Assembly (NCBI GenBank): GCA_017517605.1
Contig: JAFWYQ010000031.1
Span: 1 to 44,585 of the forward strand
Origin: Bacteroidaceae bacterium
Lineage (GTDB): Bacteria; Bacteroidota; Bacteroidia; Bacteroidales; Bacteroidaceae
Reading direction: 5' to 3'
DNA: 44,585 bases
Part shown: in pieces, positions 1,157 to 37,825 of the stretch
How the letters are laid out: each line of letters starts with the position of its first letter
Position numbering within the stretch: position 1 is the stretch's first letter
Program-made: the position numbers and the translations under genes
Notes under the pieces: generated by a model
The model's database searches: none
The model's input: the letters and a program-made list of their open reading frames with translations, nothing else
Told to the model about the DNA's origin: nothing

Positions 1157-4100
1157 ATGAATATTAGAGGCTTGTTCTTGTTTGTGTCCTTTCTGCTTGT
1201 TTCGACGGTCGGGATGGCAAAGGATTATATGTTCCGCCACATCGAGGCAGACGAGGGATTGTCCAATAGTCAAATCAATACTATCTTTCAGGATTCACGG
1301 GGTTACATGTGGTTCGGTACCTCGTCGGGGCTGAACCGCTATGACGGTTTTCAGATGAAGGTGTACCGCAGCAGTATGACTGATGCAAACTCCTTGCCCG
1401 ACAGTTATATACGCGACATCCGCGAGGATGTGTCGGGCTTCCTGTGGGTGCAGACTTCGGAAGGCTATGCCATTTACAATCCTGCCACGGACAGTTTTGA
1501 CCGCGACATACGTCAGCATGTGTTCCAATATGGTCTTGCTGAAGAGCCTACCTCGGTGTTTGTGGACAAGAAGGGCGACTTCTGGTTCTATCTGGCGGGT
1601 AAGGGCTGCTATTGGTACAACATTGAACAGAAGATTCTCTACCCGTTTGAACAGGGGGATGGCGCAGGCATGTTGCCTGAGGGCGACATCTCCTATATGA
1701 CGGAATGCAAAGAAGGTACCCTGTTGGTGTATACCAGCGGCTTGCTGGTGTGTGTCAATGGCGACATGCGCCGCGTGGTGTGGATGAACGACTACATCCC
1801 GGCCAAGACGGCTCCCCGTACACACTCTTATTCGGCTTTTGTGGACAAGAACGAGAATGTGTGGGTGTATGGCATTCCTGGCGTGCGCATCTACAACAAG
1901 GAACAGGACAAATGGATTCCCTCCATGTCGGCTCTGACCGAGCAATGGGGATTGCCCGCAGATGACAAGATTGACAACGGCATCGTGGGAATGGGGCAGG
2001 ACCGGCATGGTGTGCTGTGGATGGCTACACGGCATCATGGCCTGTTGATTGTGAATCCCCAGGCGAAGACGGTGCAATGGGAGAGGGCTTCGGATGCGGA
2101 TGCCCGCTCGTTGAAACACAACGCTATGCTCACCCTGTATGTGTCGCCCGCGAAGGATGTGGTGTGGGCCGGTGCGGCAAGGAGCGGACTGGCCTATTAT
2201 TCGGATTGCATGTTCAAGTTCCATACCGATGTGAAGGAGGATGTCACTGCCATTGCCCCCAATGGCGAGGAACGCTATTGGGTGGGGACAGGCAAGAATG
2301 GTATCCTTGACTACAATCCGGCTACGGGCGAAATCGGCAGGCTGAATACGTCGGTAGACTTCAGACAACATGAGATTTCGTCGCTGTATGCCAGCCGCAC
2401 GGGGGCATTGTGGGCCTCTACGAACAAGGGGCTTGTCTTCCGTGTGCAAGAGGGTGGACGTGAGGTGACAAATTACCAGATTGTTACTCCTAATGCCCCT
2501 GCTACCCCTGCCACTCATGCGATAACCGACCTGTTGGAGGACAACCGCGGCTCTTTGTGGATTGCCACTTTGGGAGCAGGCCTGCAGCGCCTCGACATCC
2601 AGACGGGGAAGATAACGGTATACAGCGTGGCAAGAAACGGCTTGCCGTCTGACCGAATCAATTCGTTGGAACTGACGAGCGACCGCAATCTGTTGATGGG
2701 AACCACTCAGGGAGTGGCTGTGCTGGATCTGGAAAAGAATACGGTGGCTTCGTATCACGGTACCCGCGAAGGGAATATCCCTTATACCAGTTCGTATGTG
2801 AACCACGTGATAGAAGACCATCGCGGACTCTGGTGGATTGCTACGCGCGACGGTGTGAACATCTACGACTCGAAGACCGACCGCCTGTCGGTGATTGGTG
2901 CTGCCGAAGGATTGGCCAATGCGGTAGTGCTGGGCGTGGGATGCAGTGGTGCCGAGTCTGTGTGGGCCAGTACGGCCGGTGGTATCTGCCGCATTGTGGT
3001 AGAGAGAAATGATACGGGAACCGACTATATTTACCGCATATACAATTATAGCGAACACGACGGCCTGCAGGGGTATGAGTTCAACCAACGCTCCATTTGG
3101 GTTACCTCGGATGGCGAGGTGGCTATGGGTGGAACCCGTGGAATGAATGTGTTCCGTCCGAACGATATTGTGTACAACCAGAAGTTGCCTAAGGTGATGT
3201 TCTCCGCATTGCGTGTGGGAGATACTGAGGTGAGTGTAGGGGAAGAGGTGAACGGTACCGTTGTCATGCCGGAGGCTTTGGGACATGATGGCCAGATATT
3301 CCTTACCCAGGCTCATCCTTCGTTTACCGTGATGTTTGGTTCCGATGACTTCAGTATGCCGGAGAAGAACCGCTTCCAATATAAGCTGGATGGATTTGAT
3401 GATGCATGGCACGAGTGTACTCCCTTGCGTAATGGAGTGACATTTACCAACCTCTCTCCAGGTGAATATGTGCTGAAGGTGAAGGCCATCAACGGCGATG
3501 GCTATAGCGGGAACGAGACGGCGCATCTGCAGATAGTGGTAAAGGGACCCTTCTGGACTTCGCCTTGGGTGATACTCATTTATGTGGCCGTGGTAGCCCT
3601 GTTGGCATGGATGTTCCTGCGCATGTGGCTACGCAAGGAGCGTTTGCAAATCAAGAAACAGCTGTTGGAGGACGAATCCTTCGGCTTGTGCGACAAGGAT
3701 AGTGTGATTGTTGGTAATGATGAAGAGAGTGAAGCTGTCAAGCAGCCGGTGGTAGAGGAGACTCCTGTTGTGGAGGTGCAGCTTCCTGTAGTGGTGGCAG
3801 TGGACGAGAATATAGAATACCTTGCCTATATTGATGACTGTTTGAACAAGGCATTCAAGGTGACTCCGACTACGGATGCAGAGGCGGCCTGGAACTCGAT
3901 TGTGGCGCAACACCCGGATGTGGTGCTGCTCAGTGTGTCGTCCATCGATTCAGAAACCTACTTCCTCTGCCATCGTCTGAAGGCGGATGAAAGTACGGCA
4001 CACATACCGGTGGTATTGCTTATTTCCAAGCGCATGAAGGATGAGTTGGAGGCTGTGGGTATGGATGATGTTTGCCTGTTGAAGCCCATAACGAAGGAGC

Positions 4101-4519
4101 ATTTGCAGAAACGATTGCAGCTGCTGCTGGCCGGTGACGATGAACAGGCGGTTGATGCGCTGACCGCTACGATGACACAAAGCGAACTTACGGTAGAGGA
4201 GAAACTGATGGCCGATGCGGCACGTTACGTTGAAGAGAATATCTCCCGTCCCGACCTGTCGGTAGAGGAGATGGCCCGCCAGATGGGAATGAGCCGTGCA
4301 CATCTGTATAAATGCCTGATGGTAGCTTGTGGAAAGACACCGATCGAGTTCATTCGTGCTATACGCTTGAAGCAGGCGGCTGAATTGTTGAAGGATTCCC
4401 GTTACAATGTTTCTGAAGTGGCCTATCAGGTAGGCTTCAATAATCCACGCTATTTCGCCAAATATTTCGCCGAAGCATACGGCGTGCTTCCTTCGGCTTA
4501 TCAAGAGAAGTTCAGATAA
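1157..4519 (+). CDS. HTCS-derived membrane regulator lacking histidine kinase (sensor, TM, pseudo-receiver, AraC)
   Basis: This 1120-residue protein is built like a hybrid two-component regulator with its middle removed. Residues 1-21 form a signal peptide. A large periplasmic sensor of repeated two-component propeller units follows (for example DSRGYMWFGTSSGLNRYDG near residue 50). A Y_Y_Y domain occupies about 717-797 and one transmembrane segment about 802-824. After a short acidic linker comes a receiver-like domain (about 878-992) and an AraC-type helix-turn-helix domain (about 1014-1120). The HisKA and HATPase domains normally found after the membrane segment are absent; full HTCS proteins are usually about 1300-1400 residues. 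The receiver phosphoacceptor position reads S926 instead of Asp, while K976 in the KP motif is kept. I infer a one-component, membrane-tethered regulator signalling without phosphotransfer. No SusC/SusD genes are adjacent, so its targets are unknown. The start fits the promoter at 1077-1108. Confidence 0.88.
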   Translation: MNIRGLFLFVSFLLVSTVGMAKDYMFRHIEADEGLSNSQINTIFQDSRGYMWFGTSSGLNRYDGFQMKVYRSSMTDANSLPDSYIRDIREDVSGFLWVQTSEGYAIYNPATDSFDRDIRQHVFQYGLAEEPTSVFVDKKGDFWFYLAGKGCYWYNIEQKILYPFEQGDGAGMLPEGDISYMTECKEGTLLVYTSGLLVCVNGDMRRVVWMNDYIPAKTAPRTHSYSAFVDKNENVWVYGIPGVRIYNKEQDKWIPSMSALTEQWGLPADDKIDNGIVGMGQDRHGVLWMATRHHGLLIVNPQAKTVQWERASDADARSLKHNAMLTLYVSPAKDVVWAGAARSGLAYYSDCMFKFHTDVKEDVTAIAPNGEERYWVGTGKNGILDYNPATGEIGRLNTSVDFRQHEISSLYASRTGALWASTNKGLVFRVQEGGREVTNYQIVTPNAPATPATHAITDLLEDNRGSLWIATLGAGLQRLDIQTGKITVYSVARNGLPSDRINSLELTSDRNLLMGTTQGVAVLDLEKNTVASYHGTREGNIPYTSSYVNHVIEDHRGLWWIATRDGVNIYDSKTDRLSVIGAAEGLANAVVLGVGCSGAESVWASTAGGICRIVVERNDTGTDYIYRIYNYSEHDGLQGYEFNQRSIWVTSDGEVAMGGTRGMNVFRPNDIVYNQKLPKVMFSALRVGDTEVSVGEEVNGTVVMPEALGHDGQIFLTQAHPSFTVMFGSDDFSMPEKNRFQYKLDGFDDAWHECTPLRNGVTFTNLSPGEYVLKVKAINGDGYSGNETAHLQIVVKGPFWTSPWVILIYVAVVALLAWMFLRMWLRKERLQIKKQLLEDESFGLCDKDSVIVGNDEESEAVKQPVVEETPVVEVQLPVVVAVDENIEYLAYIDDCLNKAFKVTPTTDAEAAWNSIVAQHPDVVLLSVSSIDSETYFLCHRLKADESTAHIPVVLLISKRMKDELEAVGMDDVCLLKPITKEHLQKRLQLLLAGDDEQAVDALTATMTQSELTVEEKLMADAARYVEENISRPDLSVEEMARQMGMSRAHLYKCLMVACGKTPIEFIRAIRLKQAAELLKDSRYNVSEVAYQVGFNNPRYFAKYFAEAYGVLPSAYQEKFR

Positions 4520-4544
4520 AATTAAGTTTCGCAAGTAGAGAAGT

Positions 4545-4686
4545 AGCTATTCAGCGATAATACAAACTTCAACTTATTATTTAGAAAGCAGAGACACAAA
4601 GAAGATATATTTGTCACTGAAAAGGGGAAAGACTCTGTGTTTCTGTGTCTCTGTGTCCTAAATAATTTGTTTCGCTGAATAGTTAC
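4545..4686. repeat. MITE-like repeat, copy 1
   Basis: Terminal inverted repeats of the form AGCTATTCAGC and GCTGAATAGTT bound about 142 bases. Inside, GCAGAGACACAAAG and CTCTGTGTTTCTGTG arms can pair into a long imperfect hairpin around TTGTCACTGAAAAGG. The copy at 24330-24478 matches over its full length in the opposite orientation. It starts 25 bases after the regulator stop codon, so its hairpin may also end that transcript. Confidence 0.8.
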
Positions 4687-4736
4687 GTAGAGAAGTAGCA
4701 GGAGTGTAGACAATAGTTTTAACAATGAGTATTGCC

Positions 4737-4811
4737 GTAGGGGTGCCCCTTGTGGGTACCCGAATGGAACGGGCAAAACAATGATTGGGCATCCACAAGG
4801 GTTGCCCCTAC
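4737..4811. repeat. GTAGGGGC palindromic repeat, copy 3
   Basis: The 25-base left arm 4737-4761 (GTAGGGGTGCCCCTTGTGGG onward) is nearly the reverse complement of 4787-4811 (ending AAGGGTTGCCCCTAC), with a 25-base loop. It belongs to the family at 232-358 and 829-904. Confidence 0.7.
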
Positions 4812-4960
4812 AGAGGGCAAAAACGAGGATTCCATGCAAACAGTACATTCGTCTACACTACTAAGCGAAGCGTCACTCCTACACTCCTGTACTCCAAAAG
4901 GTTGTACATGTGACTATGAAATGAAACTGATGAGGGTTTATGTCCGAACTAAACTTAAGT

Positions 4961-5012
4961 AAAAAAACAAGGTTCAAAGTAAAGGCGTTTAAACCTTAAA
5001 CTTTGAACCTTG
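4961..5012 (-). terminator. Probable intrinsic terminator of ackA
   Basis: On the minus strand the perfect 13-base arms CAAGGTTCAAAGT (5012-5000) and ACTTTGAACCTTG (4980-4968) are followed directly by seven T residues. It lies 26 bases past the ackA stop. The same sequence looks like a dispersed repeat, since related TTTGAACCTTAAACTTTAAA text is at 404-436. Confidence 0.7.
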
Positions 5013-5037
5013 AACTTTTAATATATTTATACTCTGC

Positions 5038-6234
5038 TTATTTCAGTAATGTCATGGTGTCTGATGCAATCATCATCTCCTCATCGGTGGGGATGACAAC
5101 AACCTTGACCTTGGACTCGGCAGTTGAGATGATGCCCTCTTCGCCACGGGTAGCGTTATTGATGTCGTGGTCAATCTTTACACCCATGTATTCGAGTCCT
5201 GCACAAGCAGTTTCGCGGCAATCGGCCTGATTTTCGCCTACACCACCGGTGAAGAGGATTACATCCACACCACCCATAGCGGCTGCGTATGCACCGATGT
5301 ACTTCTTGATACGGTAGAAATACATGTCGATGGACAGACGGGCACGTTCGTTGCCGTTGGCTGCTGCGGCGGCTACTTCGCGCATGTCAGATGATACACC
5401 TGATACGCCTACCAATCCCGATTTCTTGTTCAACAGGTTAGAAATGCCTGTGGCGTTCAATCCCTCCTTCTCCATAATGAAGGTAACGGCACCACCGTCG
5501 ATGTCGCCTGAGCGGGTTCCCATCATCAAGCCTTCCAACGGAGTGAGTCCCATGGTGGTGTCGATACACTTGCCATCCTTAACGGCTGAGATGGAGCCTC
5601 CGTTACCTACGTGGCAGGTGATGATGCGGCTGCCTTCGACGGGGATGCCGAGGTATTCGCATACACGCTGTGATACGTAGCGGTGCGAGGTTCCGTGGAA
5701 ACCGTAGCGACGTACACCATACTTCTCGTACAACTCGTAAGGTACGGCATACATGTAAGCATGTGCGGGCATGGTCTGGTGGAAAGCGGTATCGAATACT
5801 CCCACTTGCGGGATGTTAGGAAGCAAGGCTGATACGGCATTCACACCCTTCAGGTTGGCAGGGTTGTGCAGGGGGGCAAGGTCGTTGCAGGCGGTGAAGG
5901 CATCCAACACCTCCTTGTTCAGTACGACTGATTGGCTGAAACGCTCGCCACCGTGTACCATACGGTGACCTACAGCATCCAGTTCGTCCAATGACTTCAA
6001 TGCTCCGTATTCTGCACTGGTCAATGTCTGGAAAATGAAGTCTACACCTACAGTATGCTCGGGGATATCCTTTTCTAAGATTTTCTTTTCGCCGTTGGGC
6101 AAAGTCAGTTTCAAGAACGAACCGGGCAAGCCGATTTTCTCGATTCCTCCTTGAGCGAGCACCTCTTTGGTCTCCATCTCAAAGAGCTTGTATTTGATAG
6201 ATGAACTTCCACAGTTCAATACTAAGATTTTCAT
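5038..6234 (-). CDS. ackA: Acetate kinase
   Basis: The enzyme interconverts acetyl phosphate plus ADP and acetate plus ATP, the last step of acetate-forming fermentation in the cytoplasm. The 398-residue length is normal for the family. It opens with LVLNCGSSSIKYKLF (nucleotide-binding start with the conserved Asn) and shows HRMVHGG, DTAFHQTMP, HGTSHRYV, MGTRSGDIDGG and a late TDEEMMIASDT, the usual substrate and metal residues. I chose the ATG at 6234 because the upstream in-frame extension is a low-complexity stretch derived from an intergenic repeat. It lies 107 bases downstream of pta on the same strand, so the two genes form the usual acetate operon. A terminator follows at 4961-5012. 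Confidence 0.97.
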   Translation of the reverse strand: MKILVLNCGSSSIKYKLFEMETKEVLAQGGIEKIGLPGSFLKLTLPNGEKKILEKDIPEHTVGVDFIFQTLTSAEYGALKSLDELDAVGHRMVHGGERFSQSVVLNKEVLDAFTACNDLAPLHNPANLKGVNAVSALLPNIPQVGVFDTAFHQTMPAHAYMYAVPYELYEKYGVRRYGFHGTSHRYVSQRVCEYLGIPVEGSRIITCHVGNGGSISAVKDGKCIDTTMGLTPLEGLMMGTRSGDIDGGAVTFIMEKEGLNATGISNLLNKKSGLVGVSGVSSDMREVAAAAANGNERARLSIDMYFYRIKKYIGAYAAAMGGVDVILFTGGVGENQADCRETACAGLEYMGVKIDHDINNATRGEEGIISTAESKVKVVVIPTDEEMMIASDTMTLLK

Positions 6235-32140: not shown

Positions 32141-32172
32141 TTTGCCTATTCCGCTTTTTATCCTTACATTTG
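32141..32172 (+). promoter_or_regulatory. Consensus promoter for the PqqD-kinase-exporter cassette
   Basis: TTTG at 32141-32144, a 20-base spacer and TACATTTG at 32165-32172 give a full Bacteroides consensus match. The PqqD start at 32196 lies 24 bases downstream. The longer frame starting at 32142 would include the promoter and is rejected. Confidence 0.8.
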
Positions 32173-32195
32173 CAATCAATATAAAACATGCTGTT

Positions 32196-32465
32196 ATGAA
32201 AATAAGCTCAAACTATAGACTCCGCACCATAGCCGGTGAGACCATTGTGGTGAACCAAGGGGTGGGAGAGAAGAATCTGACACGCATCATTTCGTTGAAC
32301 GCTTCGGCGCGCATGATGTGGGAAGAGTTGGCAGATAAAGCCTTTACCTTGGACGATGCCGCCCATTTGTTGGAAGAGACTTATGGCATTGATGCCGCCC
32401 AAGCCCGAAAAGATGCCTCTGCATGGGTGGAGGCATTGAAGAAGTGTGGGATAATAGGTGAATAA
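32196..32465 (+). CDS. PqqD-family peptide-binding (RRE) protein
   Basis: The 89-residue protein has the PqqD fold signature: short N-terminal strands (YRLRTIAGETIVVNQG), the SLNASARMMWEEL segment typical of the first helix, and a winged helix end (ARKDASAWVEALKKCGIIGE). PqqD-like proteins bind leader peptides of ribosomally made, modified peptides (RiPPs) and hand them to modifying enzymes; stand-alone copies occur as the B1 protein of lasso peptide clusters. The gene overlaps or abuts the nucleotidyltransferase gene, and the promoter at 32141-32172 places it first in a five-gene cassette. Confidence 0.88.
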   Translation: MKISSNYRLRTIAGETIVVNQGVGEKNLTRIISLNASARMMWEELADKAFTLDDAAHLLEETYGIDAAQARKDASAWVEALKKCGIIGE

Positions 32466-32475
32466 GCAACGTACC

Positions 32476-33585
32476 ATGAATCTGTCACTGAACACTGCCG
32501 AAAAAATGTTGCTGGCCTTGCTGCGCATGGCGTTGCATAGCCGTGTGGAAGCGGATGTCCCTTGGGATAATATTCCCGATGCCGCTTGGCACCAATGCTA
32601 CAAGTTGGCTGCCCGCCAAGGAGTGATGGCCATGGCTTGGGATGGCATACAGCTGATACCTGGCGAATGCCCGTTGCCACGCCCCTTGAAACTGACATGG
32701 GCGATGGCTGTAGAGCAATACGAGGAGAAGTACCGTCACTATTGCAGTGTGGCGGACGAGTTGTCGGCACTATATAGCCAGCATGGCATCCACATGGTGC
32801 AAATGAAAGGTGTAGGCCTGTCGGCCATCTATCCGATACCGGCCCATCGCGAGGGAGGTGACATCGACATCTATGCATGGTCGGCCAATCGTGAGGAGAT
32901 GACCGATGTGGAGGCCAACCGCCTGGCTGACGAGTTGATGCGGCAGATGGGAGTGGATGTGGATACGGAGCACTCGGCCAAGCACAGCAACTTTTACTAT
33001 AAAGGGGTTCCCATCGAGGGACACAAGACTTTTCTGAATGTGACCAAGTATCGTGTGGCCACTCCTATGGACGAGTTGTTGCACCGCTTGCTGAAACCCG
33101 AGCCGACACCGTTGTGCGAGGGTGCCTATACGGTGCAGACACCGGGCAAGGAGTTCAATGCGCTGTTCCTTTCCTTTCATGCCGCACAGCACTATGGCAA
33201 CGGCATCCGCTTGCATCACTTGATGGATTGGGCTTGCCTGCTGATGCGTTATGGTTGGTGCTTGCCTGCAGAGGTGACCGACGAGCGTCTGCTACGTTTC
33301 ATCAATTCATTGACAACCCTCAGCAACCAACTGCTCGGCACATCCGTTGCCGTAGAGGCCGACGAGCGGATGACGGAGCAACTGTTTGCCCAAATGCTTC
33401 ATCCACGCTACGACAGGGCAGTGCCTGTCAAGGGCAAGGTGCGGGTGCTGTGGCACAAGACGCGGCGCTTCTTCCACGAGCATCGCTTGCTCTCCACCGT
33501 TTTTGAGGATGCGTCTATCGGACGGGCCATTGTGGATTCTGTCATCTTCCACATCCGAAAGCCCGAGACTATATTTGAGGTGTAG
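32476..33585 (+). CDS. Nucleotidyltransferase-family protein (NTP_transf_5 type)
   Basis: The protein has about 369 residues from the ATG at 32476; a GTG at 32458 would overlap the PqqD gene by 8 bases. The nucleotidyltransferase core shows MKGVGLSAIYP followed by HREGGDIDIY with the metal-binding pair D129 and D131. Proteins of this kind (PF14907) appear beside PqqD and HPr-kinase-like genes in paeninodin and pseudomycoidin lasso clusters, where the pair modifies a C-terminal residue of the peptide. The substrate here is unknown. An 81-base gap filled with phased CTATAG units separates it from the ABC exporter gene. Confidence 0.82.
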   Translation: MNLSLNTAEKMLLALLRMALHSRVEADVPWDNIPDAAWHQCYKLAARQGVMAMAWDGIQLIPGECPLPRPLKLTWAMAVEQYEEKYRHYCSVADELSALYSQHGIHMVQMKGVGLSAIYPIPAHREGGDIDIYAWSANREEMTDVEANRLADELMRQMGVDVDTEHSAKHSNFYYKGVPIEGHKTFLNVTKYRVATPMDELLHRLLKPEPTPLCEGAYTVQTPGKEFNALFLSFHAAQHYGNGIRLHHLMDWACLLMRYGWCLPAEVTDERLLRFINSLTTLSNQLLGTSVAVEADERMTEQLFAQMLHPRYDRAVPVKGKVRVLWHKTRRFFHEHRLLSTVFEDASIGRAIVDSVIFHIRKPETIFEV

Positions 33586-33587
33586 AA

Positions 33588-33658
33588 TTATAGAAAACTA
33601 TAGTAGTTATAGTAACTATAGTCGGCTATAGAAACTATAGTTCCTATAGTAACTATAT
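33588..33658. repeat. Phased CTATAG/TTATAG repeat array
   Basis: Eight TATAG-type units start at 33588, 33598, 33607, 33616, 33626, 33635, 33644 and 33653, spaced 9 or 10 bases apart. CTATAG is itself palindromic. The array fills the gap between the nucleotidyltransferase and ABC exporter genes. Confidence 0.75.
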
Positions 33659-33666
33659 AGAAAAAT

Positions 33667-35289
33667 ATGAGACTGATACGACGAATACTGAACCTGTTGC
33701 TCCCCAATGAACGAAAGACAGGGATGAAGGTGGCTGGTGCTGTCTTCCTCTCGGCCATATTGGATTTTGTGGGGTTGGCAGTGTTGTTGCCCGTTCTCTA
33801 TCTTTTGTTGGATGGGGGTGGTCAGCAACGTGCGGCTGCATGGTTCTGCTTGTTGGCAGTGGCGGTGATTGCGCTGAAAAGTGTTTTTGCAGCCATGCTC
33901 TCGCGCTATCAGCAACGTTTTCTTTTGTCGCTCTATAAACGACTCAGTGCTTCGCTGTTCGACGCTTATTATCGTAAAGGTTTGCTCTTTATCCGCGAAC
34001 AGGGAGTGAGTCGCTTGGGGCATCAGGTGAACTTTGTCTGCTACGCATTCAGTTTGAATATGTTGTCGCCCTTGTTGCGTATTGCCGGTGATGGGTTGTT
34101 GATTCTTTTGGTGACGGTCGCGCTGGTGGTGTTCGATTGGTTTACGGCTCTTATCTTGTTTGCTTCGTTCTTGCCTTTTATGGTATTCTATATTATAGGT
34201 ATACGCAAACGGCTTCGTATATACGGCGAACAGGAGTTGGATGCCCGTCGAAAGCAAGCACGTATTGTGAACGAAACCTTTGGTGGCTTTGCCGAACTGG
34301 AGGTAAACGGTGGGTTCGACACCATGAAGCAAGTGTTCCAACAGGGATTGGAGCAAATTTCCAATAGTCGGATGAAGATGGAGCGTATCTCGCGTGTACC
34401 GATGTTCCTGTCGGAATTGTCGGTAATTGTGGGACTGACCCTGCTGACGGTATTGGGGACAGGCGACATAAAGGCATTGGTCGGAGTGTTTGCTGTAGCA
34501 GCTTTCCGCTTGTTGCCGGCCTTGCGTGGCATACTGATGGGATGGACGCAGATACAGAATACGGTACCAAGTCTTCAAATCATCGAAACAGGGTTGGCCG
34601 ATGCGAATGAAGTGGATATTAACAACGTGGACATATCCTTTGAACATAGCATTACAATCCGCAACTTGACTTATGGCTACGAAGCCGGTGCTCCTGTGTT
34701 GGATGGCTTCAACTGCTCTATCCGCAAAGGGGAATACGTCGGCTTCAACGGATACAGTGGAGTGGGGAAATCTACTCTTTTCAATCTGTTGTTGGGCTTT
34801 CTGAAACCTCAATCGGGCGGAGTGTATGTGGATGCTATTCCTTTGACACAAGATAACCAACCTGCCTGGTTAGGGAAAATAGGCTATGTGCAGCAGGATG
34901 TCTTCATCTTCCAAGGTTCATTGGTCGAGAATGTGGCATTGGGGTGTAAGGATATAGATAAGGAAAAGATAACGAACATATTGAAACAGGTGTGCCTTGA
35001 TAAATGGGCCAATGAATTGCCGCAAGGCATGGATACACCGATGGGTGAATATGGCAAACGCTTGTCTGGTGGACAACGACAGCGGATAGGTATTGCACGC
35101 GCCTTGTACAAGGAGGCTGAAATAATCTTGTTGGATGAGGCTACCTCGGCCCTTGACAATCACACGGAAATGGAGATAAATACCATGTTGGCCGGATTGC
35201 GTAAGGTGTATACTGGCCTTACCATCTTGTCCATTGCGCACAGGGAAAGTTCGTTGTCCTATTGTGACCGTATAATAACCATTGATTAA
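33667..35289 (+). CDS. ABC exporter (membrane domain fused to ATPase)
   Basis: The 540-residue protein is a half-size type I exporter: residues about 15-310 hold roughly six membrane helices (VAGAVFLSAILDFVGLAVLL at the start) and residues about 335-540 the ATPase. Walker A is GYSGVGKS (362-369), the signature LSGGQRQRIG starts at L466, and Walker B ends IILLDEA with D490. It has no N-terminal C39 peptidase domain, so it would not cut leader peptides itself. The next gene starts 3 bases after its stop. The context suggests it exports the product modified by the neighbouring PqqD, nucleotidyltransferase and kinase. Confidence 0.92.
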   Translation: MRLIRRILNLLLPNERKTGMKVAGAVFLSAILDFVGLAVLLPVLYLLLDGGGQQRAAAWFCLLAVAVIALKSVFAAMLSRYQQRFLLSLYKRLSASLFDAYYRKGLLFIREQGVSRLGHQVNFVCYAFSLNMLSPLLRIAGDGLLILLVTVALVVFDWFTALILFASFLPFMVFYIIGIRKRLRIYGEQELDARRKQARIVNETFGGFAELEVNGGFDTMKQVFQQGLEQISNSRMKMERISRVPMFLSELSVIVGLTLLTVLGTGDIKALVGVFAVAAFRLLPALRGILMGWTQIQNTVPSLQIIETGLADANEVDINNVDISFEHSITIRNLTYGYEAGAPVLDGFNCSIRKGEYVGFNGYSGVGKSTLFNLLLGFLKPQSGGVYVDAIPLTQDNQPAWLGKIGYVQQDVFIFQGSLVENVALGCKDIDKEKITNILKQVCLDKWANELPQGMDTPMGEYGKRLSGGQRQRIGIARALYKEAEIILLDEATSALDNHTEMEINTMLAGLRKVYTGLTILSIAHRESSLSYCDRIITID

Positions 35290-35292
35290 ATA

Positions 35293-36150
35293 ATGAATCA
35301 TTATTATCAGATAGCAGGGCATTGTTTGAAGATTTCAGGCGAACTGTTGTGCCACGCCATAGAAGAGATTACAGGTTTTGCCCCTTTCCGTATGCAGGAT
35401 TCGGATGAGGCTGTACTTGAATTTATGATGGCTGAAACAGGTGATGTGCCCACCTTTGAGAAGGTGCAATATACATTGGCGTATGAAGATGTGGAAGGCT
35501 CCTTTGGACTTGTATCGGACAAGGTGTATATGCTTTGTCTTGCACCCGAAGGACGAGCCTCTCTTTACATGTGGGCCGATGTTGAGCAAGGACGGGTGTA
35601 TCTGAATGGAAACCAAGAGATGTACTTGTTGCGTTTTGCCTTGTGGGTGGGATTCGGTTTGTTGACGTGCCTTCAGAATACGATTGCTGTTCATAGTAGT
35701 TGTATTGTGTATGATGACAAGGCTGTACTGTTCCTGGGTGAAAGTGGTACAGGAAAGAGTACGCATACACGCTTATGGCGCGAACATATAGAGGGAGCGG
35801 TATTGTTGAACGACGACAGTCCCATTCTTCGTGTAGAAGACGGGAAGGTGTGGGCGTATGGAAGTCCATGGAGTGGTAAGACTCCTTGCTATAAGAATCA
35901 ACGATATGAATTGAAGGGGTGCGTGCGATTGTCGCAAGCACCTCATAATCGAATGAAGCGTTTGACTGTATTGCAAGGGTATGGCGCTCTGCATCCTTCG
36001 TGTCCGCCGGAGTTTGCATACGACAACTTGTTGTACGATGGGGTGAGTCAAATTATTGGTGGAATACTGTCAGCTGTCCCTGTGTATCATTTGGAGTGTT
36101 TGCCAGATAAGGAGGCTGCGGAACTATCTTGTAGAACCATATTTGGATGA
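35293..36150 (+). CDS. HPr-kinase-like protein kinase
   Basis: The 285-residue protein has an HPr kinase/phosphorylase-like catalytic half: AVHSSCIVYDDKAVLFLGES leads into P-loop GESGTGKS (149-156), then NDDSPIL supplies the conserved Asp pair and VWAYGSPWSGK follows, as in HprK relatives and PEP carboxykinase-like folds. The N-terminal half (about 1-125) is unlike HprK and has no recognised domain. HprK-like enzymes encoded in lasso peptide clusters phosphorylate a C-terminal Ser of the peptide, so a peptide substrate is a reasonable inference here. The stop codon overlaps the next start (ATGA), implying translational coupling to the S26 peptidase. Confidence 0.85.
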   Translation: MNHYYQIAGHCLKISGELLCHAIEEITGFAPFRMQDSDEAVLEFMMAETGDVPTFEKVQYTLAYEDVEGSFGLVSDKVYMLCLAPEGRASLYMWADVEQGRVYLNGNQEMYLLRFALWVGFGLLTCLQNTIAVHSSCIVYDDKAVLFLGESGTGKSTHTRLWREHIEGAVLLNDDSPILRVEDGKVWAYGSPWSGKTPCYKNQRYELKGCVRLSQAPHNRMKRLTVLQGYGALHPSCPPEFAYDNLLYDGVSQIIGGILSAVPVYHLECLPDKEAAELSCRTIFG

Positions 36151-36602
36151 ACATGGTGAAAACGGTGTCAAATACTCTTTTCTTTTCTTGGGTAGAAGAG
36201 GAAATTGTCAAAGGAAATGAAGTGCGTTTTAAACTGAAAGGGGTTTCTATGTCACCATTGATTCGTGACGGAAAAGATGATGTCATTCTTGTTCCTTGTA
36301 AATCAGAAGAATTGAAACCGATGGATGTTGTACTTTTCCGTTATCAAGGTAAGCATTTGCTTCATCGCATTATCCGTAGGGAAGAGAATAAATTATGGAA
36401 TCAAGGAGATGGCTCTTTTGTTGCGATGGAACAATGTTCTGTAGAGGATGTAGTGGGAAAGGTTGACCGTATATGTCGACCTTCAGGTAAAGTCGTTTCT
36501 GTTGATTCAAGACAATGGCGTTGGTTGAGCCGAATGTGGAGATTCTCTGACGTGTTGCGCCGCTTTTTGTTGAGAATATACCTGTTTTTCTATTCAAATT
36601 GA
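36147..36602 (+). CDS. S26-type signal peptidase-like protein (Ser/His, SipW-like)
   Basis: The 151-residue protein has the signal-peptidase core LKGVSMSPLIRDGKDDVILV with the catalytic Ser at S34, and a second catalytic position filled by His at H73 (HLLHRIIRREE), as in SipW and ER-type signal peptidases rather than the Ser/Lys pair of LepB. A GDGSFVAMEQC segment follows. A hydrophobic C-terminal segment (LLRIYLFFY) could anchor it. It is translationally coupled to the kinase gene. A role in removing a leader or signal peptide from the cassette product is inferred. A tandem DUF4890 pair follows 95 bases downstream. Confidence 0.85.
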   Translation: MNMVKTVSNTLFFSWVEEEIVKGNEVRFKLKGVSMSPLIRDGKDDVILVPCKSEELKPMDVVLFRYQGKHLLHRIIRREENKLWNQGDGSFVAMEQCSVEDVVGKVDRICRPSGKVVSVDSRQWRWLSRMWRFSDVLRRFLLRIYLFFYSN

Positions 36603-36697: not shown

Positions 36698-37096
36698 ATG
36701 AAAAAGATTGGATTAATCTTGTTTGCCTCTTTGGCAATGAGCGTAGGTGCAATGGCACAGATGCCTAATTTTGATCGTAGCGAAATGTTGAAGAACATGA
36801 CTAACAATCAGACTGAACGTTTGAAATTGAACAAGGAACAGGCTGCTAAGATGTTGGTGTTGAACGATAGCTTGATGTCATCTATGATGGGTGGCTTCAC
36901 TCCTGGTGCTGACATGGGTCAGATGGATTTCGAAGCTATGCGCGCTAAGATGGAAAAGGCTCGTGAAAAATATAATAAGGGCGTGAAGGCTCTTTTGACT
37001 GCTGACCAATACAAGGAATTTGAAAAGATGCAGGAAGAACAACGCCAGAGAATGGGCCAGGGTGGTCCTGGTGGATTCGGCGGTGGTCCGAGATAA
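36698..37096 (+). CDS. Small secreted DUF4890-like protein, first copy
   Basis: The 132-residue protein has a signal peptide (about 1-20, ending AMAQ), a helical central region (QTERLKLNKEQAAKMLVLND, then EKAREKYNKGVKALLTADQY) and a Gly-rich end (GQGGPGGFGGGPR). It looks like the CpxP/Spy-type DUF4890 family, periplasmic and possibly chaperone-like; the exact function is unknown. The second copy at 37292 shares the same layout and upstream region. A terminator follows at 37119-37162. It is downstream of the PqqD cassette, but whether it is functionally linked is not known. Confidence 0.8.
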   Translation: MKKIGLILFASLAMSVGAMAQMPNFDRSEMLKNMTNNQTERLKLNKEQAAKMLVLNDSLMSSMMGGFTPGADMGQMDFEAMRAKMEKAREKYNKGVKALLTADQYKEFEKMQEEQRQRMGQGGPGGFGGGPR

Positions 37097-37291: not shown

Positions 37292-37825
37292 ATGAAGAAA
37301 ATCGGATTGATTTTGTTTGCCTTCTTGGCAATGAGTGTGTGCGCTGTGGCACAGAATGACCGTCCTCGTGGTGAGCGTGGTGGAGCACCTCGTATGAACC
37401 GTGAGCAGATGGTGAAGAACATGACAGATAATCAAGTAAAGCGTTTGAAACTGAACAAGGAGCAAGCTGCAAAGATGCAAGTGCTGAACGATAGCTTGAT
37501 GTCAGCAACGATGGGTGGGTTTGGTACAAGACAACGTAATGCCCCCCGTTCAGAGATGAGCCAGGCTGATCGTGAAGCTCAGCGTAAGGAAAGAGAGGCA
37601 AGAACGGCAAAGGCTCGCGAGAAGTATAATAAGGAGGTGAAGGCTATCCTTACTCCAGAGCAGTACAAGGAGTTTGAAAAGATGGAGAAAGAACGTCCGC
37701 AGCAAGGATTCGGTGGTGGTCGCCGTGGAGGACAGGGTGGTCCTGGTGGATTCGGTGGTGGTCGTCCCAATGGTCCTGGTGGACAAGGTGGCCCTGGTGG
37801 ATTTGGTGGCGATCGTAATAGATAA
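37292..37825 (+). CDS. Small secreted DUF4890-like protein, second copy
   Basis: The 177-residue protein starts with a signal peptide nearly identical to the first copy (MKKIGLILFAFLAMSVCAVA) and shares NREQMVKNMTDNQVKRLKLN, LNDSLMSATMGGFG and YKEFEKMEKERP. It has an insertion rich in Arg, Ser and Ala in the middle and a longer Gly/Arg/Pro tail ending GGFGGDRNR. The upstream bases (TTAAACCTTTTG and beyond) resemble those before the first copy, so the duplication included the leader. A bidirectional terminator at 37840-37873 follows. Confidence 0.8.
   Translation: MKKIGLILFAFLAMSVCAVAQNDRPRGERGGAPRMNREQMVKNMTDNQVKRLKLNKEQAAKMQVLNDSLMSATMGGFGTRQRNAPRSEMSQADREAQRKEREARTAKAREKYNKEVKAILTPEQYKEFEKMEKERPQQGFGGGRRGGQGGPGGFGGGRPNGPGGQGGPGGFGGDRNR

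Follow-up and report, generated by a model that had tools for sequence, protein, structure and literature searches.

The closest described counterpart of the system considered here is the pathway for linear polyphosphorylated peptides (LPP) of Bacillota, encoded by lppA-K-B-S-D-N (Popov et al., Nat Commun 2026, PMC13381572). As set out in the text of that paper, the precursor carries the motif YxxPxVLxHQxIxFETxxS, the YxxP part of which is bound by LppB; LppK polyphosphorylates core Ser3 and LppS cuts after Thr(−1). LppN had no effect in the host used, and the final LPP product was not identified. The system is called Bacillota-restricted there, and no word beginning with 'Bacteroid-' occurs in the main text. 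A second group with related components is that of lasso peptides of the paeninodin/pseudomycoidin type (reviewed in PMC8498205). Here we analyse a five-gene operon on contig JAFWYQ010000031.1 of a Bacteroidaceae bacterium. The DNA examined (44,585 nucleotides, hereafter the window) is one whole contig, C29, of a 2.97-Mb metagenome-assembled genome (MAG) that is 80.5% complete. We consider it very probable that the operon matures and exports linear phosphopeptides that form a Bacteroidota branch of the LPP type, these being ribosomally synthesized and post-translationally modified peptides (RiPPs), and that it acts in trans on precursors encoded elsewhere.

The five genes lie on the plus strand between positions 32196 and 36602 and, as the original prediction had stated, run in one direction with tight or overlapping junctions. 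The features of the locus are as follows:

32141–32172, plus strand: promoter, TTTG-N20-TACATTTG, found by pattern scan 23 bp 5′ of the pqqD ATG
32196–32465, plus strand: PqqD, a discrete RiPP recognition element (RRE; PF05402, 3.1e-13)
32458–33585, plus strand: NTP_transf_5 nucleotidyltransferase (PF14907, 2.3e-40)
33586–33666, plus strand: intergenic array of CTATAG-type palindromes forming a stable hairpin, between nucleotidyltransferase and exporter genes (motif count, fold z)
33667–35289, plus strand: MsbA/PglK-like ABC exporter of 540 amino acids (ABC_tran 3.9e-31, ABC_membrane 6.5e-7)
35293–36150, plus strand: HprK-like P-loop kinase (TIGR04352 HprK_rel_A 1.7e-4; invariant motifs)
36147–36602, plus strand: S26 peptidase of the SipW/Sec11 type, predicted to be the leader peptidase (TIGR02228, 1.1e-7)

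The PqqD and nucleotidyltransferase genes overlap by 8 bp and the kinase and S26 genes by 4 bp, with gaps of 3 bp between exporter and kinase and 81 bp between nucleotidyltransferase and exporter. The start of pqqD is the ATG at 32196; a 107-residue version of the open reading frame (ORF) begins at an upstream TTG. The promoter that had been claimed is present, with a consensus that we take to be of the Bacteroidales type; the pattern has three matches on the two strands of the window, the operon promoter being one of them.

Sequence likeness places PqqD, NTP_transf_5 and the ABC exporter firmly in their families; for the S26 peptidase the assignment is moderate and for the kinase it is weak. 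In PqqD, Y62 and D72 are invariant (22/22) and align with a Tyr and an Asp of LppB that have the same spacing (Y60 and D70 in the published text); binding of a YxxP leader is predicted on this basis. The nucleotidyltransferase retains an intact GDID motif (G134-D135-I136-D137, invariant in 11/11) and has no match in the PDB. The exporter scores best among named families with PglK (6.5e-74), followed by MsbA (8.4e-68), both under the curated cut-offs, and no peptidase domain was found in its 540 residues. In the kinase, SGTGKST, H134, N173 and D175 are invariant in all 24 aligned relatives. The S26 peptidase scores best in TIGR02228, the archaeal-type signal peptidase family (31.8 bits versus a cut-off of 51.85), and its five PDB matches include SPase I (best 0.0021) and SEC11C (0.068); S34-M35, H73-R74 and G87-D88 are invariant in 22/22 sequences. 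The spacing of Ser34 and His73, 39 residues, is that of S29 and H68 given for LppS, whereas D88 lies 15 residues after the His, compared with 25 for D93 of LppS, so that D88 is a possible equivalent of that Asp at most. Thus the discrete stand-alone RRE, SipW-like peptidase, NTP transferase and MsbA-like exporter of LPP all have counterparts here, with the TIGR02228 and MsbA matches under cut-off. The HPr-rel-A system is matched weakly: its kinase model (TIGR04352) gives 1.7e-4 at 20.8 bits versus a cut-off of 200, and its PqqD model (TIGR04353, PqqD_rel_X) gives an E value of 0.01, also far under the curated cut-off.

Precursors were sought by scanning small ORFs for YxxP and then by profile, and the search for conserved small ORFs that the original prediction had proposed yielded a family of 84 distinct sequences. 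That prediction had seen no precursor. This holds for the window, in which the YxxP scan of small ORFs found none, but not for the genome: the source MAG encodes four in trans, on contigs C30, C73, C77 and C94. Three of these (on C30, C73 and C94) lie about 1.2 kb or less from a contig end, as if repeats had broken the assembly. The family shares a leader signature in fixed register, YxxPxxExxExxxE-(G)F(A/C)xS, followed by a short, acidic, variable tail. With the Tyr taken as position 1, Y1 and P4 occur in 84/84 by construction, as the set demands YxxP; the other positions are E7 in 66, E10 in 62, E14 in 74, G16 in 54, F/L/I17 in 80, A/C18 in 74 and S20 in 75; position 6 is Val or Ile in 54. 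YxxP is also present in all 120 profile hits. From the chosen Met, precursors are 26–75 residues long (median 48); tails measure 6–43 residues (median 18), are net acidic in 82/83 and have a Trp within the last six residues in 46. The leaders are under purifying selection, with ratios of non-synonymous to synonymous variation (pN/pS) of 0.17 for nine paralogues of genome G149, 0.30 for the four precursors of the MAG and 0.50 for all 84, the last near saturation. A single genome can hold up to 18 precursor matches. We also considered whether the cores mimic protein C-termini, which is unsupported overall: among 82 comparisons the C-terminal best score was higher in 34 and lower in 44. One tail from the MAG, NDSDDSEFGN (L095:1489-1617), is nearly equal to the C-terminus of a predicted lipoprotein from another genus (L106:494-1507), with no general trend.

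The precursors track the kinase across genomes. In 151 genomes of the window's family, the kinase was found in 122, a precursor in 66 and both in 63; the kinase is thus present in 63/66 precursor genomes versus 59/85 others (P = 2.6e-5). Among 247 genomes of the order, the corresponding numbers are 36, 12 and 10, or 10/12 versus 26/235 (P = 7e-8; 9/11 and P = 4e-7 with the source MAG excluded), and precursors occur in 9/16 genomes with a kinase of at least 150 bits versus 3/231 other genomes. Across 296 genomes of the phylum, precursors were found in two, the source MAG and G396, which belongs to another order; of these 296, the kinase was sought in those two. G396, picked out by its precursors, then gave two strong kinases, S26, PqqD, nucleotidyltransferase and ABC genes. 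In two genera, all 14 genus-assigned genomes have both kinase and precursor or neither.

Physical linkage points the same way. A listed precursor lies within 10 kb of a kinase in 19 of the 63 genomes with both, against roughly one expected by a rough estimate; seven of these genomes were among the sources of the search model's sequences and the G080 precursor is identical to one of those sequences, which leaves 11. In G169 a precursor stands directly upstream of hprK-s26-pqqD-ntp5-abc, and in G149 (L130–L132, G149:C1, about 1797–1848 kb) nine of 11 listed precursors lie about 30 kb or less from one of the kinases of that genome. In the source MAG, one PqqD match and one kinase match accompany the four precursors, and a single operon would therefore have to serve all of them.

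The four families that this operon has in common with paeninodin-type lasso clusters, as the review describes these (PqqD, there called B1, HprK-like kinase, nucleotidyltransferase and exporter), together with the YxxP leader, raise the question of whether this is a lasso pathway of the paeninodin kind, with its cyclase and B2 protease encoded elsewhere or missed. In the 80.5%-complete MAG, B2 (PF13471) has no match and the cyclase family (PF00733) only one of 28 residues, so the absence of cyclase and transglutaminase-like protease that had been noted at the locus extends to the assembled genome, whose incompleteness leaves such a pathway some room; for a radical SAM enzyme, also noted as absent, the search covered the ORFs of the locus. 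An S26 peptidase stands in the place of B2. The 18 precursors scanned have no Pfam match, and in NCBIfam they give two hits, both at E 0.11 and with one member each, one of them to lasso_PadeA_fam, the paeninodin family. Modification of the peptide C-terminus as in paeninodin, which had been proposed, does not fit: 82/83 tails do not end in Ser, only one does, and the conserved Ser lies at the junction of leader and core. A point in favour of a lasso pathway is G093 (L141, G093:C7), in which an AsnB/lasso-cyclase-like gene at 3532–5139 (Asn_synthase 8e-8) and a flippase gene lie inside a kinase–PqqD–S26–nucleotidyltransferase cluster, the precursor of which has a TonB-receptor gene after it. 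This cluster is perhaps a cyclised relative with S26 in place of B2; used as a query, its cyclase-like protein has no match at E 0.01 in any other of 198 loci, a limited test with one query. On balance, we regard a lasso pathway as very unlikely and keep to an LPP-type linear product.

Relatives of the operon were compared at 62 loci selected by kinase, the window included, several of which end at contig ends. The neighbourhood search for the five families that had been suggested finds all five in the window's order in 9/61 related loci, and two arrangements are frequent: pqqD-ntp5-abc-hprK-s26 and hprK-s26-pqqD(-abc). Among 21 named kinase relatives, 17 are from ruminant guts, with the labels Bacteroidaceae, Bacteroides, Bacteroidales and a few others. 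G188, which belongs to a distant family of the order, encodes an 805-residue ABC exporter whose N-terminal part is an S26 domain and whose gene adjoins those of a kinase and a nucleotidyltransferase; this single fusion retains the S26 Ser, the His and a GD, and ties peptidase and export together. C39 domains join peptidase to export in other peptide exporters. A secreted protein of about 150 residues encoded 5′ of hprK at 11 loci, with a Gly-rich tail in two, was considered as a substrate and set aside; its loci represent one chromosomal place, with a sigma-70 gene in nine and a trypsin/PDZ protease gene in six, and synteny may explain its position.

Measured against the refuting condition given with the original prediction, the genes do not stand apart from other pathways everywhere: G093 has its cyclase-like gene, and several relatives lie inside capsule or exopolysaccharide loci. 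Poly_export/SLBB, GNVR chain-length, sugar- or glycosyltransferase or flippase genes are found near relatives in G013, G036, G093 and G396, and PglK is the best named match of the exporter. Accordingly, the target of these genes might not be a peptide but a surface polysaccharide or the lipid that carries it, with the small ORFs being incidental. In such a role one would not expect a PqqD that binds leaders or a peptidase of the leader type, and neither the co-occurrence and linkage of the precursors nor the constraint on their leaders would follow from it; we consider this reading highly improbable. Peptide maturation remains our preferred explanation.

A further feature of the precursors is their position next to genes for surface proteins. 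For 74 of the 84 the downstream gene could be assessed, the sequence ending too soon after the other ten. A same-strand predicted lipoprotein gene lies directly 3′ of 52/74, within 70 bp in 46 of the 52; another same-strand gene follows 14 and an opposite-strand gene eight. Lipoproteins were called by a simple lipobox pattern, by which at least one of the 52 calls is false (an AI-2E transporter), and which is matched by 28/393 other genes of the same loci. Pfam names among the 52 include fimbrillin-like (6), FimA (3) and LRR/BspA, GLUG or adhesive domains, and at least 23 match no Pfam family at 1e-3. The nine linked precursors of G149 are each followed by a gene for a predicted lipoprotein of 756–1104 residues. 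This arrangement could also mean that the small ORFs have nothing to do with the operon and are short leader ORFs that regulate the lipoprotein genes downstream. Such ORFs would not be expected to follow the kinase from genome to genome or to stand directly before hprK, and YxxP is what the RREs of lasso and LPP systems are known to bind; of the alternatives weighed here, we find this one the least credible. Given co-directional precursors just 5′ of lipoprotein genes, the peptide product is probably active on the cell surface, together with the adjoining lipoprotein.

We propose the following mechanism. PqqD would bind the YxxP part of the precursor leader, as its conserved Tyr and Asp suggest. 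The HprK-like kinase would then phosphorylate the conserved Ser that lies 19 residues beyond the Tyr and is the putative counterpart of LppA Ser3, and the S26 peptidase would cut at the small-residue junction (A/C)-x-S, at the F/A bond, after the A or after the S. NTP_transf_5 might add a further group to the phosphate, possibly a sugar or nucleotide, which is the weakest step. Finally, the MsbA-like exporter would move the acidic core peptide out, consistent with the S26–ABC fusion. No ring would be formed and the peptide would stay linear. Far more tentatively, and with doubt outweighing confidence, we suggest that one maturase–exporter set serves peptide–lipoprotein pairs across the genome. 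Each acidic peptide, once phosphorylated and decorated further, would be made for the surface lipoprotein encoded next to it (those of fimbrillin, LRR and GLUG type included) and be bound or covalently joined to it, as a many-cargo system of surface labelling or signalling in gut Bacteroidota.

Several observations weigh against assignment to LPP-type maturation. The LxHQxIxFET stretch of the published LPP motif is absent from these leaders, which have ExxExxxE-GFAxS. The PqqD profile scores the actinobacterial lasso RRE TfuB1 (6jx3, 1e-7) far above LppB (9x8z, 0.15), with TbiB1 (5v1u, 6e-4) and PbaB1 (9x90, 4e-3) in between. The likeness of the kinase to HprK is weak by sequence: 1ko7 is matched at E 0.36 and the PDB matches are mostly generic P-loop proteins. 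The five-gene set is incomplete in relatives, S26 being found at 57, PqqD at 55, ABC at 43 and the nucleotidyltransferase at 26 of the 62 kinase-selected loci. The first model, used at a threshold of E 0.01, gave no precursor in 59 of the 122 kinase genomes, for which the model may be incomplete, the set idle or the substrates different. Conversely, no kinase accompanies the precursor-like ORFs of G044, G067, G112, G314 and G387, and G112 retains a C-terminal fragment of S26. Finally, the precursor models were built partly from precursors adjoining kinases.

Other features of the locus lie outside this argument. Between 33586 and 33666, CTATAG-type palindromes with two or fewer mismatches have nine matches versus 0.04 expected, the rest of the window having none; the array has a fold z of −3.7 and is possibly an attenuator or processing site. 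Directly 3′ of the operon, two genes encode proteins with Gly-rich tails related to DUF4890 (36698–37096 and 37292–37825), of which the second passes the Pfam cut-off and the first does not. DUF4890-type genes after S26 were rejected as part of the system, as they are not among the families present in at least four of the 62 loci. A defence system was also rejected, PADLOC having matched the ABC protein only.

Should the proposed assignment be correct, LPP-type maturation would occur in a second phylum, contrary to the published view that it is restricted to Bacillota, and the operon would represent a RiPP pathway whose precursors are both multiplied and encoded in trans. Peptides of this class would gain a concrete partner in surface lipoproteins, and the leader motif allows the candidate substrates of a strain to be listed. 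With a kinase relative in 122/151 sampled genomes of the family, this may prove to be one of the more common routes of peptide modification in gut Bacteroidota. A literature search for it in Bacteroidota, with subscription papers and preprints outside its scope, returned only lasso and RRE papers, the LPP paper and one RiPP survey. In a term search of the text of the 2023 Bacteroidales RiPP survey (PMC10352776), 'nucleotidyltransferase' was absent and 'PqqD' appeared only in the reference list.

Compared with LPP as published, the operon has the same five gene families (the kinase by weak sequence likeness), no cyclase and, in some members, capsule-locus neighbours, and its precursors likewise have YxxP, a conserved part closing in Ser and a variable C-terminus, the spacing from Tyr to Ser being one residue longer here. 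The idea of an uncyclised phosphopeptide, put forward when the locus was first described, is largely supported, by a precursor family that co-occurs with these genes and is often linked to them and by a matching Bacillota gene set that makes linear phosphorylated peptides; modification at the C-terminus is the part that falls. Because the second half of the leader differs and the RRE profile is nearer TfuB1 than LppB, we class the system as a variant of LPP-type maturation, not as a proven LPP member; it shares parts with LPP and probably works alike. What it adds to LPP is a different phylum, Bacteroidota, a leader signature of its own, precursors dispersed over the genome, their pairing with lipoproteins and, in one case, the fusion of S26 to the ABC exporter.

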